A stretch of DNA of 64,000 bases from Nitrogeniibacter mangrovi (lineage in GTDB: Bacteria > Pseudomonadota > Gammaproteobacteria > Burkholderiales > Rhodocyclaceae), in the NCBI RefSeq assembly GCF_010983895.1, contig NZ_CP048836.1, positions 1,984,001 to 2,048,000 of the forward strand, in the 5' to 3' direction. Both the position numbers and the translations under genes were made by a program. The notes under the pieces are model-generated. The model saw only the letters and a list, made by a program, of their open reading frames with translations, made no database searches and was not told where the DNA came from. Of the stretch, positions 52,501-63,993 are shown piece by piece; within the stretch, counting starts at the first letter, position 1, and every line of letters starts with the position of its first letter.

Positions 52501-52514
52501 GCCGTTCTCGGAAG

Positions 52515-52562
52515 TGGTGGGCGGTACTGGGATCGAACCAGTGACCCCTGCCGTGTGAAGGC
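52515..52562 (-). repeat. 3' fragment of tRNA-Val (CAC): left attachment site
   Basis: On the minus strand this reads GCCTTCACACGGCAG, a full T-arm GGTTCGATCC and ACCGCCCACCA, which is the anticodon loop (CAC), variable loop, T-arm and 3' acceptor of a tRNA-Val. The matching 5' half is absent: upstream sequence departs from a tRNA after GCC of the anticodon stem. This is what integration of an element into the 3' half of a tRNA gene leaves behind; the intact copy should stand at the far end. Confidence 0.88.
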
Positions 52563-52600: not shown

Positions 52601-52694
52601 CGTTTTTAACCTACTGAAAAATGGTAACTTTTGACCTCTGAGTTCGCCTGGTGGTGGACTTTGTTTTTTCACACGGTTTTCACATGAGGTCGTG

Positions 52695-53831
52695 ATGGGC
52701 ATCAAGATTGACACTGTCAGCGCGAGAAAGGCACTCGATCCGAGGCCAGCACCGTACTTCCAGCGACTCGAGAAGGGGGCTTATATCGGCTACCGCAAGC
52801 TGGACGAGGCGTCAGGCACATGGGTGGCGCGCTGGCGTGATGAGCACGGAAAGCAGATCAACCACACGCTCGGGTGCTTCGATTCATTCGACCAGGCGTG
52901 CAAGGCGGCGCGCGAATGGGTCAAGGGTGCCCAAGGAGGGGTCACCGAGGTCGTCACGGTGGAGGAGGCGTGCAGGCGCTACGTGGAGGATCGAAAGGTC
53001 GCCAAGGGCGCGGCGACCGCGACAGACGCGGAAGGCCGCTTCAACAGAACGATCTATGGGACCAAGCTCGGCGTCCTGAAGCTGTCGGCGCTGAAAACCT
53101 CGCACATCATCGATTGGCGAAATGGCATCGCCGCCCTGGATGACGATGACGCGGAGGACCCCGACGAAGTGCGGCGGGCTAAAGACACGGCGAACCGCTA
53201 CCTCGCCACATTCAAAGCTGCTCTCAACCTCGCGTATCGCAGTGGTCTGGCTAACGACACGGCGCAGTGGGATCGGGTTGAGACCTTCAAAGGCGTCGGC
53301 AAACGGCGCATGCGCTGGCTGACCATCTCCGAGCGCAAGAAACTGATCCTGGCAGCCCCTAAGGCCCTTCAGACCTTCATGAAGGCGCTCCTTCACACGG
53401 GTGCTAGACCCGGTGAGTTGGCCAATTGCTACGTCGGCGACTTCGATAAAGCCGGTGTGCTAACCCTCGACGGCAAGACCGGACGGAGGACTGTGCCCGT
53501 CTCGCCGGAGGCCGCGAAGTTGCTCGCTGCGAGCGCGGGGACACGGCCGGACGATGAAGCGCTGCTGGTGCGCGCGGATGGCAAGGCGTGGACTCGGTTC
53601 GATTGGCGTGACGGTATCCAGGACGCGAGAACAACGGCAGCTCTCGGCGATGACGTGGTCGCCTACACCCTGCGGCACGTCGCGATCACCGAAATGATCG
53701 TCTCCGGGGGTATAGACCCCTTGAGCGTCGCGCGTCTCGCCGGGACCAGCGTTGCCATGATTGAACGGCACTACGGCCATCTCAGGAAGGACAAGGTCGC
53801 GGCACAACTGGCCAAGGTCAAGGTGCTCTGA
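52695..53831 (+). CDS. int: Tyrosine-type site-specific integrase
   Basis: A 378-aa phage/island integrase. The N-terminal part has an AP2-like arm-binding pattern (GYRKLDEASGTWVARWRDEHG), a SAM-like core-binding domain follows (about residues 85-200), then the catalytic domain: Arg in HTGARPGELAN, the YTLRHVAIT box (Tyr in place of the first His, with Arg and following His kept) and the nucleophile Tyr in MIERHYGHL. It is read away from the attachment site into the island, the usual arrangement. GAGG lies 5 bases before the ATG at 52695; a GTG directly before it is possible. Confidence 0.95.
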   Translation: MGIKIDTVSARKALDPRPAPYFQRLEKGAYIGYRKLDEASGTWVARWRDEHGKQINHTLGCFDSFDQACKAAREWVKGAQGGVTEVVTVEEACRRYVEDRKVAKGAATATDAEGRFNRTIYGTKLGVLKLSALKTSHIIDWRNGIAALDDDDAEDPDEVRRAKDTANRYLATFKAALNLAYRSGLANDTAQWDRVETFKGVGKRRMRWLTISERKKLILAAPKALQTFMKALLHTGARPGELANCYVGDFDKAGVLTLDGKTGRRTVPVSPEAAKLLAASAGTRPDDEALLVRADGKAWTRFDWRDGIQDARTTAALGDDVVAYTLRHVAITEMIVSGGIDPLSVARLAGTSVAMIERHYGHLRKDKVAAQLAKVKVL

Positions 53832-53898
53832 CCCCTGAATCAGAGCTGGCGAACCCAAAAAAATTTCCCCGCGACTCAGGTCGTGACAACACGATGAA

Positions 53899-54399
53899 AG
53901 CGTCGGAGTGGCATCCGGCGCTGACACAGCCGCACCCGGTATTTTGCTGGGCGATGAAGGTAAAGCACGACTGTGTCCGTCGCCGATCCTGCCTCGCCAA
54001 GGCTCGCCCAGCAAAGCATCGGGTGTTTTCTTTGGACTCCGGCCTACGCGGAGTCTATCGGCGAAGGGAGTACCCGAAGAAGGCCACTGGTGCAGACACC
54101 ATGCTGCAACAGTCCCGAGGGGAGATGCCCACAAACGTTCTGGCCGCGTCAGTACCGCACCACAGAAGAGTCGGGGTGCAGCAGTGATGGAGCAGGGCGG
54201 CATGCCGGGAGACAGACCGGCGTCAAAGTGTCGTTCTGTATCGGGGACTGCGAAGGCCGCCAGCAGTGGTGGAATGCCCCGATTAAGGATGCGACGACTG
54301 CGATGTCGCACCTGCCACGGGGCCAAGGTTCGAAGACATACGGGCATGTGATGCAGAAAATCCCTCTAACTCGCTTCATTGTGGGTTAGGGGGTTTTTT
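53899..54399 (+). ncRNA. Large structured non-coding RNA candidate
   Basis: About 500 bases with no credible protein but a chain of strong helices, all read on the plus strand. (1) 53899-53906/53915-53922, 8 bp. (2) 53933-53938 and 53943-53954 pair with 54020-54025 and 54004-54015: 18 bp broken by one 4x4 internal loop. (3) 54035-54041/54049-54055, 7 bp. (4) 54086-54095/54104-54113, 9 bp with one mismatch. (5) 54157-54161/54175-54179. (6) 54202-54208/54217-54223. (7) 54240-54251/54263-54267 plus 54277-54283, 12 bp. (8) 54286-54295/54305-54313, 9 bp with one bulge. Last comes a terminator. U-G pairs in helices 1, 6 and the terminator would be A-C mismatches on the other strand, so plus-strand RNA is favoured. 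I could not match it to RNase P, tmRNA, 6S or intron signatures. The exact 5' end and promoter are not clear. Confidence 0.65.
54357..54399 (+). terminator. Terminator of the structured RNA
   Basis: CCCTCTAAC/GTTAGGGGG stem (54362-54370/54385-54393) with a 14-base loop and six T following; flanking AAAA/TTTT can extend it. It stands at the 3' end of the structured region and has no protein gene directly before it. Confidence 0.8.
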
Positions 54400-54586
54400 G
54401 CCTGAAACCTGCAGCCCTCTCCCACCGAGCATGGTGTCCCCCCTCTCAGCGATGTGCGCTGATCAACCATTTTTTGCCGAAACTCCGACAACCGGTGAAC
54501 GCCGAGGAAGCGAGATCACTCGCCCAATTCGAGCGGGATCCTCAGAAAGCGAGGGTAAAACGAAGCCAGTCAGACTTAAGTCGTAG

Positions 54587-54624
54587 GACAACCGCGACAA
54601 CCAGACTCGACAACTTCGACAACC
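54587..54624. repeat. Iterated GACAAC(C) direct repeats upstream of hsdR
   Basis: GACAAC occurs at 54587, 54596, 54609 and 54618, that is two pairs each spaced 9 bases; a further GACAACC is at 54487. The cluster ends 12 bases before the -35 hexamer of the hsdR promoter, a typical regulator position. The rest of the 54400-54709 gap holds no gene that I can support. Confidence 0.6.
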
Positions 54625-54636
54625 AGATCACATGCG

Positions 54637-54665
54637 TTGTGCGTAAATCGGCTGCCGGCTAGAAT
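54637..54665 (+). promoter_or_regulatory. Sigma-70 promoter of the hsd operon
   Basis: TTGTGC (54637-54642), 17-base spacer, TAGAAT (54660-54665). It lies 44 bases before the hsdR GTG start and directly downstream of the GACAAC repeats. Confidence 0.65.
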
Positions 54666-54709
54666 CGGCCGACACCTGAAACGGTAAGAAAAAGAAACAA
54701 GGCCTGCAC

Positions 54710-57082
54710 GTGAAATCAACGCTATCTGAGCGCGACATCTGTACGAAGTACATCACGCCCGCGATTTCCAAGGCGGGGTGGGATATTCAGACCCAGATCC
54801 GCGAGGAGGTGACCTTCACGGCCGGTCGAATCATCGTGCGCGGCAAGCTGCACAGCCGGGGCACCAAAAAGCGCGCCGATTACGTGCTGTACCTCAAACC
54901 GAACCTGCCATTGGCGGTCATTGAGGCGAAAGACAACAAGCACAGCGTCGGCGCCGGCATGCAGCAGGCCCAGAGCTATGCGGATGCCCTTGAGGTGCCC
55001 TTTGTCTTCAGCAGCAACGGCGACGGCTTCGTCTTTCACGACCGCACCGGTTTGGCGCCCCAGGTCGAACAGAACCTCACGCTTGACCAATTCCCCAGCC
55101 CAGAAACCCTGTGGCAGCTTTATTGCGAGTGGAAGGGGCTGAGCACGCCCGAGAGCCAGAAAACCGTCTCAACGCCCTATTTCGACGACGGCAGCGGCAA
55201 AACGCCGCGCTACTACCAGCTCAACGCAATCAATCGCACCATCGAAGCCATCGCCAAGGGGCAGGACCGCATCCTGCTCGTCATGGCCACCGGCACCGGC
55301 AAGACCTACACCGCCTTCCAGATCATCTGGCGGCTGTGGAAGTCCAAAACCAAGAAACGCATCCTCTTCCTGGCGGATCGCAACATCCTCGTCGATCAGA
55401 CGCGCACCAACGACTTCAAGCCTTTCGGTGCAGCCATGACCAAGATCGAGAAGCGCCAGGCCAATAAGGCGTTCGAGATCTACCTGTCGCTCTATCAGGC
55501 GGTCACCGGCACCGAGGAAGAAAAGAACATCTACAAGCAGTTCTCGCCTGACTTCTTCGACCTGGTCGTGATTGACGAGTGCCACCGTGGCAGCGCCGCC
55601 GAAGATTCAGCCTGGCGCGACATTCTCGACTACTTCTCCGGCGCCACCCACATCGGCCTGACCGCCACGCCCAAGGAGACCAAAGACGTCTCGAACCTCA
55701 AGTACTTCGGCGACCCGGTCTACAGCTACTCCCTCAAGCAAGGGATCGATGACGGCTTCCTCGCCCCGTACAAGGTGATCCGGATCGATATCGACAAAGA
55801 CCTTCAAGGTTGGCGCCCATCCAAAGGCCAAGCCGACAAGCAGGGGCAGGTGATCGAAGACCGCATCTACAACCAGAAGGATTTCGACAAATCGCTGGTG
55901 CTTGAGAGCCGCACGGAGCTGGTTGCTCAGAAAGTCACCGAATACCTGACGGCGACCGACCCCTTCGCCAAGACCATCGTCTTCTGCGAGAACATCGACC
56001 ATGCCGAGCGTATGCGACAGGCGCTGGTCAATCTGAATCCTGAGCGCGTCAAAGAGAACCGCAAATACATCATGCGGATCACCGGCGACGAAGCCGAGGG
56101 CAAGGCCGAACTCGACAACTTTATCGATCCCGCCAGTCGATACCCGGTCATCGCGACCACCAGCAAGCTCATGACCACCGGCGTCGATGCGCAGACCTGC
56201 AAACTCGTCGTCCTCGATCAGCGCATTCAGTCGATGACCGAGTTCAAGCAGATCATCGGGCGAGGCACGCGAATCAACGAGGATTACGGCAAGTTCTGGT
56301 TCGCCATCATGGATTTCAAGAAAGCGACCGAGCTGTTCGCCGATCCTGCGTTCGATGGCGATCCGGTTCAGATTTATGCGCCGGGCGAGGGGCAGACACC
56401 CGTTCCACCAGATGAGGAGGAGGCCGGCCAAGGGCCGGGCGCCTCGGACACCGATCTTCCATCCTTCGAGCACGAGACTGACGGCGGTGAAGGCGAGGAA
56501 GGCGAAAAGCCGATCAAGTACGTCATCGGCAACGAGGTCACCGTCAGTGTCGTGGCCGAGCGCGTTCAGTACTACGGCCCCGACGGCAAGCTCATCACCG
56601 AATCGCTCAAGGACTACACCCGCAAGGCGGTGCGGAAGGAGTTCGCATCCCTCAGCGATTTCCTGCTGCGCTGGAACAAGGCGGACAAAAAGCAGGCGCT
56701 GATCGAAGAGCTGGAGTCACAAGGCCTGCTCCTGGGCGCCTTGGCTGATGAGGTCAGCAAGAAGCAGGGCAAGGTCTTCGACCCCTTCGACCTCATCTGC
56801 CACGTCGCCTTCGATCAGCCACCGCTCACGCGCGCTGAGCGTGCCGCTCAGGTGAAGAAGAAGGACGTCTTCGCGAAGTACGGCGACAAGGCACGCGCCG
56901 TGCTGGATGCCTTGCTCGATAAATACGCAGATGCCGGCATCGAGAGCGTCGAGGACATTCAGATCCTGAGGCTCGACCCCTTCTCGCAGATCGGCACGGC
57001 ACCCGAACTGATCGGGGCCTTCGGTGGCAAGGCCGAATATCTGTCGGCACTCCAGATGCTGGAAAACGAGCTGTATGGCTGA
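54710..57082 (+). CDS. hsdR: Type I restriction enzyme, subunit R
   Basis: A 790-aa motor/nuclease subunit that cuts unmodified DNA after translocation. The N-terminal nuclease domain has the PD-(D/E)xK pattern [20 protein letters not shown]; the helicase core has Walker [19 protein letters not shown] in [22 protein letters not shown], and motif [16 protein letters not shown]. An acidic linker (about residues 565-605) and a C-terminal helical domain for contact with M/S follow. GTG start at 54710 with only a weak ribosome-binding site. First gene of the operon; it overlaps the next gene by 8 bases. Confidence 0.95.
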
Positions 57083-57740
57083 CCAACCTGGGCGGCCGAT
57101 CAGCGCAACAGAGTTCGACGCTTTCCTCGATCGAAACACCGAGTTTCACCAGCGCGTCGTCGAGATAGTGGCCGACCTCGAACCCTATCCGGACCAGCGC
57201 TTTGTCCTCGCCATGAAATCGGCGCATCTGTCGCTTGAGCACGGCGCTGCGGTGGCCTTGCTTGTCAGCGCCGACATGTGCGCGCCGGGCTTCACGCTCG
57301 TGCGCACACAGTTCGAGTCGCTGGTTCGTGGCATCTGGTTGTTGTACGCGGCGACCGACACATGGGTTGAAAAGCTCAGCCAGCCGCTGACCCAAGAGTC
57401 GGCAGACATGGCTAAAGACACCCTGATGCTCGCCGACATGCTCAAACGCCTGCGCGCCTCAGAGGGGGCGCCTGCCGGCTTGCTCGATCAGCTCGAAGCG
57501 TGTCGAGACGTGACGTGGAAGGCGCTCAACAGCTACGCGCACGGCGGCTTTCACCCGCTGTCGAGACTCGAAACCGGCTATCCTGCGCAGCTTGCCTATG
57601 ATGTGCTGCGCAACTCGAATGCCGTGACCGCGTTGGCCACGCAACTGACCGCGATCCTGACCGGCGACCAGCGCGCCATGGCGCCCGTCCGGTCGCTGCA
57701 CGTCGAGTTTGCCGACTGCCTCCCCATCATCAATCCATAA
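57075..57740 (+). CDS. DUF6988-type helical protein within the hsd operon
   Basis: A 221-aa mostly helical soluble protein. The core is [22 protein letters not shown] and a later [13 protein letters not shown], a pattern seen in DUF6988 and related AbiV/HEPN-like helical proteins. The two conserved spots (R-x-x-F-E and S-Y-A-H-G-G) could form an active site, but I do not see a clear HEPN R-x4-6-H motif. The start at 57075 lies inside the end of hsdR, so it is translated with the restriction genes and probably has a role in the system, for example in control or a second line of defence. Function unknown. Confidence 0.7.
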
Positions 57741-63558: not shown

Positions 63559-63993
63559 TTACAGGCTATCGGGGTCGATTGCGTCTGCTCGGCAATCATC
63601 TGCGAGGCGCCATTCACTATCGGCCGGCCTCTTGATCCAGAGATCTCGCCAAGCGTTGCGACTGCTACCGGCAATCTTGTTTGCCATGGCTGCCGGCGAA
63701 ATCGGTTCCCCTTCGAAGTGAATGTCATCACCTTCGACCTTGGCATATGAATAGGCGCCCTTGTACTGCATCCTGATCTCTGTGCCTTCGGGCAAGAAGA
63801 GGGTCTTCCACTGGTAACCGCGAGCGGAACTGACTCTCAGTAGTTCAGGCTTCCAGCTTGCGTTGTCTATCCAGTAGTGGATTGCATTAGTCACCACATG
63901 GACCGGGTCGCTTGTGTCGCCTTGACTCCTTAGAAAGTCCACCAAGTCAATGAAAAGTTCGGTCGGCACGGGAACGGATATCTTCGAATTCAT
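63559..63993 (-). CDS. Putative DNA-binding protein, RHH-like N terminus plus RAMA/DUF4357-like domain
   Basis: 144 aa. The N-terminal ~45 residues (ISVPVPTELFIDLVDFLRS) resemble a ribbon-helix-helix protein. The C-terminal part, LFLPEGTEIRMQYKGAYSYA, then GEPISPAAMANKIAGSSRNAW and RDLWIKR, follows the pattern of RAMA/DUF4357-type domains that accompany restriction and methylase genes. A role in regulating or recognising modified DNA is plausible, not shown. The ATG at 63991-63993 is 7 bases from the window edge, so its promoter and any upstream partner are out of view. Confidence 0.6.
   Translation of the reverse strand: MNSKISVPVPTELFIDLVDFLRSQGDTSDPVHVVTNAIHYWIDNASWKPELLRVSSARGYQWKTLFLPEGTEIRMQYKGAYSYAKVEGDDIHFEGEPISPAAMANKIAGSSRNAWRDLWIKRPADSEWRLADDCRADAIDPDSL

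Follow-up and report, generated by a model that had tools for sequence, protein, structure and literature searches.

The region between the integrase gene int and the leader of the restriction gene hsdR (53832-54400) on a tRNA-Val island carries no coding signal, folds more strongly than its shuffled counterparts and ends in a terminator-like site. We give about an even chance to the reading that it constitutes a plus-strand, terminator-ended noncoding transcription unit that acts as a structured RNA; the transcription, start site, stability and RNA-level function of this candidate are inferred. The RNA would start near 53830-53865, just behind int; transcription, whether continuing from int or initiated at a promoter that escaped detection, would stop at the terminator (54362-54399) before hsdR. 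In the predicted fold, a 5' domain bearing a 22-bp arm is followed by a looser domain on the 3' side. The product would be a stable structured RNA that either has a promoter of its own or is released by processing from the 3' end of the int mRNA. Because of its position, the terminator would insulate hsdR from int, keeping int transcription out of the restriction gene, whereas the folding excess together with the plus-strand bias suggests that the folded RNA may have a job of its own. If transcribed and functional, the region would represent a large noncoding RNA outside Rfam, with a defence cassette as its neighbour on the integrative island; at present, it has the status of a single-sequence prediction.

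Coding potential, folding and termination of the region

The 569 bases of the region begin directly after the int stop codon, int being open up to 53831. Each of the six frames received a negative codon score (-0.35 to -0.55 bits/codon), against +0.15 to +0.66 for the nine genes used for training, all taken from the window (the whole 64-kb stretch of DNA that was analysed), and the third-position GC excess was absent. Protein-level scans yielded no match in PHROGs (three plus-strand frames and one minus-strand frame), Pfam (two plus and one minus) or NCBIfam (two plus), and tblastn searches of the plasmids with three frames were empty as well. The negative codon scores and the empty scans bear out the preliminary description, which had seen no credible gene between int and hsdR, and a decayed gene was rejected on the codon scores and the empty PHROGs and plasmid tblastn results. 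A repeated REP-type element was likewise rejected, the region and the hsdR leader being without a second copy in their own genome, where all 17 further matches to them had E values of 0.9-6.

The plus strand of 53832-54400 reached a folding energy of -250.3 kcal/mol (z -5.44), lower than any of 100 shuffles; the minus strand, with a z of -2.41, was likewise lower than all 100 of its shuffles. A run with 40 shuffles gave z values of -4.73 (plus) and -2.19 (minus), and the terminator-free segment 53860-54355, again with 40 shuffles, gave -4.24 and -2.23. The plus-strand folding excess of 37.0 kcal/mol was the largest among 104 windows and strands of 569 nt (runner-up, 25.9), the 102 others having been taken every 1.2 kb across the window, coding and noncoding unsorted, with 12 shuffles each. 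The excess is sensitive to the chosen ends: the slice 53890-54389, which retains most of the terminator and is without the 5' closing strand, ranked 6th of 126 half-kb windows and strands (12 shuffles each), and the excess of 53860-54355, at 23.9 kcal/mol, was close to that of the best other 500-nt window (about 23.5). The general lesson is that folding scores in GC-rich genomes depend on the ends and need controls drawn from windows of the same size in the same genome.

The signal is unevenly distributed: it is more pronounced in the 5' domain (53860-54130; z -4.09) than in the 3' domain (54125-54355; z -2.61), and the two strands are nearly alike around the arm (53923-54082; z -3.68 vs -3.00). 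U-G pairs had been cited in favour of a plus-strand RNA; the preference for that strand stands in that it folds better, but the pairs themselves do not contribute to it, as 20 of the 191 pairs in the plus-strand fold are G-U (10.5%), compared with 11.2% in shuffles. Because G-U pairing is near the shuffled rate, the strand evidence consists of the energy and the terminator direction, leaving G-U counts aside, and the strand argument is moderate.

The partition function predicted 16 helices, each with 5 or more pairs and a mean probability of 0.77 or higher, including the terminator and with overlapping variants counted once; at least eight strong helices had been noted initially, and this number is reached, although some helices are mutually exclusive. 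The predicted plus-strand 5' domain (53863-54126) is closed by the helix 53863-53873/54116-54126 (10 pairs, mean probability 0.85) and carries the long hairpin arm at 53932-54026, in which 53932-53954 pairs with 54004-54026 (22 pairs, mean probability 0.98). The predicted 3' domain on the same strand (54125-54347) is closed by 54125-54130/54342-54347 with a mean probability of 0.67. The arm first reported as 18 bp long (53933-53954 with 54004-54025) is indeed present, corresponding to a 22-nt inverted repeat of 86% complementarity that, read directly, comprises 19 Watson-Crick and 2 G-U pairs with one A-C mismatch. Several predicted pairings cannot coexist: the partner of ACUCC at 54036-54040 may be either 54050-54054 or 54067-54071, and the helix 53977-53987/54057-54067 competes with the interior of the arm. 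Pairing of 53923-53932 with 53968-53977 as a simultaneous pseudoknot looks sterically implausible beside the 22-bp arm, and we treat it as an alternative helix. The terminal inverted repeats of the region are weak (9 nt with one mismatch, 518 apart).

The plus-strand intrinsic terminator at 54362-54399 consists of a 13-bp stem (54362-54393) with a 6-nt loop, followed by T6, in agreement with the clear terminator originally recognized. It is the strongest of three such sites found, with shuffles giving 1.3 +/- 1.3, and it closes the folded region while sharing its orientation. A simple consensus scan of 53600-54760, which covered sigma-70-like promoters only, revealed no site of that type.

The tRNA-Val island and its genes

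A 58-bp repeat marks the ends of the island: the left att repeat, which corresponds to the 3' portion of a tRNA-Val(CAC) gene, lies at 52505-52562 and is 98% identical to genome positions 2048949-2049006, and an intact tRNA-Val(CAC) gene is located at the far end, outside the window (L028 2960-3034, minus strand). With the tRNA gene at one end and its duplicated 3' part at the other, the island measures about 12.4 kb, which confirms the tRNA-Val setting. Its first gene, int (52692-53831, plus strand), encodes a 379-aa tyrosine integrase (Pfam PF00589, E 5e-11; PHROG 1 integrase, E 2e-48) and is followed by the noncoding region and by hsdR (54710-57082, plus strand), a type I restriction subunit. 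Further downstream are a DUF6988 gene, hsdM and hsdS, and then an unknown gene, one of the NUDIX type and other small genes. The DUF6988 gene (57024-57740), between hsdR and hsdM, matches the candidate defence family PDC-S52 (E 6e-74). The 144-aa protein encoded at 63559-63993 on the minus strand had no match in Pfam, PHROGs, NCBIfam or PADLOC at the thresholds used; its C-terminal half is reminiscent of a RAMA-type domain. No phage structural family was found among the island proteins given to Pfam or to PHROGs, the latter set being without the hsd proteins. Toward the far end of the island, about 880 bases (L028 2000-2880; genome 2047999-2048879) have negative codon scores in six frames, z values of about -2 on both strands (20 shuffles) and no Rfam match above the cut-off.

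The noncoding leader of hsdR (54401-54709, plus strand) contains repeated AACTCCGACAACC-like 13-mers and is not conserved in the best related plasmids. Between 54481 and 54624, three copies of the 13-mer AACTCCGACAACC occur, 85-100% identical, which are possibly a regulator binding site.

GTDB genome contigs were scanned for the integrase, and its nearest relatives found, in Azonexus (65%) and Thauera (61%), have ORFs downstream of int; so does locus L004 (48%). The Azonexus locus (L035 9800-9850) lies behind the same type of tRNA-Val 3' end, which suggests that an attachment site is shared between genera. The flanks of the other int relatives, short in some cases, contain nothing similar to the region. 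Relatives of hsdR were found at 38 places in 35 genomes (own copy counted in both), and the region was absent from the 29 loci fetched (best blastn E 0.37); in the top-scoring plasmids related to the hsd operon, similarity begins only at about 54720. Absent from the flanks of int and hsdR relatives alike, the region therefore looks like a separate module, which seems to travel with neither gene. The roles in island maintenance, integrase control and restriction control once suggested for it find no support, and these flanks are without the sequence.

Known RNA families and homologues

At gathering thresholds, Rfam 15 detected three tRNAs only in the whole window. When 53700-54720 was compared with all Rfam 15 families at E <=10, NsiR1, Pseudomon-1 and SNORA57 were the only matches, all far below the cut-off, and no family of group I or group II introns was listed; there is therefore no recognizable GOLLD, ROOL, HEARO or intron. 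The first impression that the region matches no known RNA class is thus upheld, but the accompanying likeness to large, ornate RNAs such as GOLLD, ROOL or HEARO is not, as none of these appeared even at E = 10 and no HEARO was found in the whole genome.

No homologue was accepted from the searches of phages, plasmids, E. coli, viral contigs and whole genomes or from the flanks of int and hsdR relatives. In blastn with 53832-54400, none of 72,556 plasmid, 50,697 phage and 20,395 E. coli records, sets that may omit records near the window's own genome, matched at E <=0.01; at E <=10, 25 records (8 from plasmids, 17 from phages) gave single short matches, all but one of them coinciding with annotated genes. 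One of 60 other genomes of relatives matched, inside a gene (locus L002) whose product is presumably ArgG, and 1 of 40 int-carrying genomes, from the 80 with int-related loci, gave a 24-nt match. With the best two candidates per genome scored, matches were obtained in 1 of 228 other genomes of the family (L169, covered by reading frames) and, at E <=0.01, in 12 of 398 other genomes of the order, where about 4 were expected from the E values; this excess we put down to GC-rich composition. Reading frames were listed for three of the 12 (L115, L116 and L002). Whole-region alignments were made for 11 order loci, leaving out G313, which had no locus, against 10 mononucleotide shuffles each. Six of the 11 scored above their shuffles (L002, L115, L116, L119, L120 and L121), five of them narrowly; the L119 alignment was more clearly above (425 vs 364), but far from its blast match. 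L117, L118 and L120-L124 were taken no further. We judge the whole-genome blastn matches to be chance, based on a weak shuffle control and unequal scrutiny of the loci.

Other approaches gave similar results. In the viral contigs, one 16-base pattern retrieved 11 stretches, none with an Rfam RNA at the gathering level, and word searches with four translated frames produced no confirmed relative. Two covariance models, each built on one sequence and hence weak for diverged relatives, were also used: R1 (53923-54081) recovered its own copy only from 369 genomes of the class, and R2 (54152-54325) recovered, from 198 genomes of the order, its own copy plus a weak match in G191, whose E of 0.03 for one genome is at chance level for 198. 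When R1 was run on sets of 45, 2 and 59 loci, the best E values were 0.8, 0.013 and 0.13, none of them convincing, the match at 0.013 (L115 1105-1167; filters off, 14.8 bits) lying outside the HEARO RNA of that locus; R2 on 65 loci was equally unconvincing (best E 0.57). Genomes recur across these searches, so that the counts do not sum to distinct species. A narrow test of the literature, covering titles and abstract openings in open PubMed Central among the matches listed, found no such RNA described.

Competing explanations and known systems

Several observations speak against an RNA unit, namely, the orphan status of the region, the lack of a promoter-like site, the end-dependent folding, a minus strand that also beats its shuffles and the competing helices. 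The main rival, to which we assign a smaller yet appreciable probability, is that the region is unselected island DNA, that is, debris between cargo modules that includes the terminator of int and incidental GC-rich helices. This would fit a sequence that is an orphan in the searches made, that is surpassed in its slice 53890-54389 by five other windows or strands of the 64 kb and whose alternative helices compete with one another; the island, moreover, has a second noncoding-scoring stretch, the about 880 bases at its far end. However, no gene remnant was found in the frames tested, no other of the 104 windows and strands of this size equals the full region in folding excess, z remains at -4.2 when the terminator is removed, and the plus-strand bias matches the terminator direction. 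Considerably less probable is an element acting at the DNA level, with the inverted repeats serving as an origin of transfer or as recombination or replication sites for island mobility. The region, noncoding and containing several imperfect inverted repeats, adjoins int on a mobile island, and the loop of the long arm holds ATCCTGC, which resembles the core of P-type nick sites; but the base preceding ATCCTG is G, where the consensus wants a pyrimidine, the island proteins that were scanned include no relaxase, the sequence is absent from the plasmids of the collection searched, and the terminator and plus-strand bias point to RNA. An extension of the RNA reading to a new, large (~540 nt) class of mobile-island RNA with switch-like alternative helices is in our estimation improbable, if less so than the DNA-level element; such an RNA, alone or within a ribonucleoprotein, would serve island maintenance or phage defence next to a type I restriction system.

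Two more specific RNA functions appear less probable still. An antisense regulator, in which the hairpin 54086-54113 would present GACACCAUGCU for pairing with the hsdR leader and thereby repress hsdR, is an unlikely proposition, even though GACACCAUGCU (54095-54105) is perfectly complementary over 11 nt to 54428-54438 in the leader and only 1.4% of 500 shuffled leaders reached a longest match of 11 (5.6% reached the 8-mer count). In PLE and P4-type satellites, island RNAs do show antisense complementarity to leaders (PMC7567579). However, 2 of 39 control leaders, taken from roughly called genes of the window, also reach 11 nt, the region upstream of int attains 12 nt of complementarity, and shared 7-mers are not enriched, 32% of shuffles matching their count. 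The antisense candidate was therefore rejected as not above the control leaders, the leader pairing counts as no evidence, and control of restriction through the hsdR leader is left without support. The least probable reading of all, and a very improbable one, is a divergent standalone guide-RNA scaffold of the HEARO/IscB type. It stems from blastn of the order genomes, in which 54105-54134 was 90% identical over 30 nt to L115 1501-1530, covering the 3' end (AACANNNNCGAGG) of an RNA at L115 1290-1526 that scores above the Rfam cut-off for HEARO (93.7 bits vs 83). Striking as this match is, at an E of 4.6e-4 per genome and 399 genomes about 0.2 such matches are expected by chance; the HEARO model (RF02033) was silent on 53700-54720 at E <=10 and throughout the candidate's own genome, the remainder of the region aligns unconvincingly with L115, and Pfam identified no IscB among the island proteins scanned, the neighbours being int and hsdR. 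The HEARO relationship was rejected on the silent model, the HEARO-free genome and the chance expectation. In L115 itself (genome G083), the HEARO lies upstream of a PD-(D/E)XK nuclease-like gene (DUF3799), whose product was the only one with Pfam matches among seven frames of the 3 kb, none of them IscB; this HEARO may be a standalone guide RNA, carried by a phage-like element.

Compared with known systems, the candidate structured RNA has in common with the HEARO/IscB guide RNA (RF02033) the 30-nt stretch that resembles the 3' end of one HEARO, but differs from it in having no match to the model and a genome in which no HEARO was found. The resemblance to GOLLD and ROOL, the functions of which are described as poorly understood (PMC12286853), is one of general character: the region is large and noncoding, lies on mobile DNA near a tRNA gene and has extensive predicted structure. 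In contrast, it matches neither Rfam model at E <=10 and no homologue of it was found. GOLLD and ROOL are phage or prophage RNAs, often encoded close to tRNA genes; the candidate, predicted from sequence alone, resides on a tRNA-Val island with an integrase. As with the PLE and P4-type RNAs (PMC7567579), a noncoding region on an integrative element has short complementarity to a leader of that element, but here the complementarity does not rise above control leaders and the terminal inverted repeats are weak. Finally, the region resembles a long 3' untranslated region of an integrase mRNA, given that it begins right after the stop codon of int and has a terminator at its end, although the three nearest integrase relatives examined carry ORFs at this position. 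Moreover, for a plain 3' untranslated region, approximately 530 nt of strong structure would be a considerable length.
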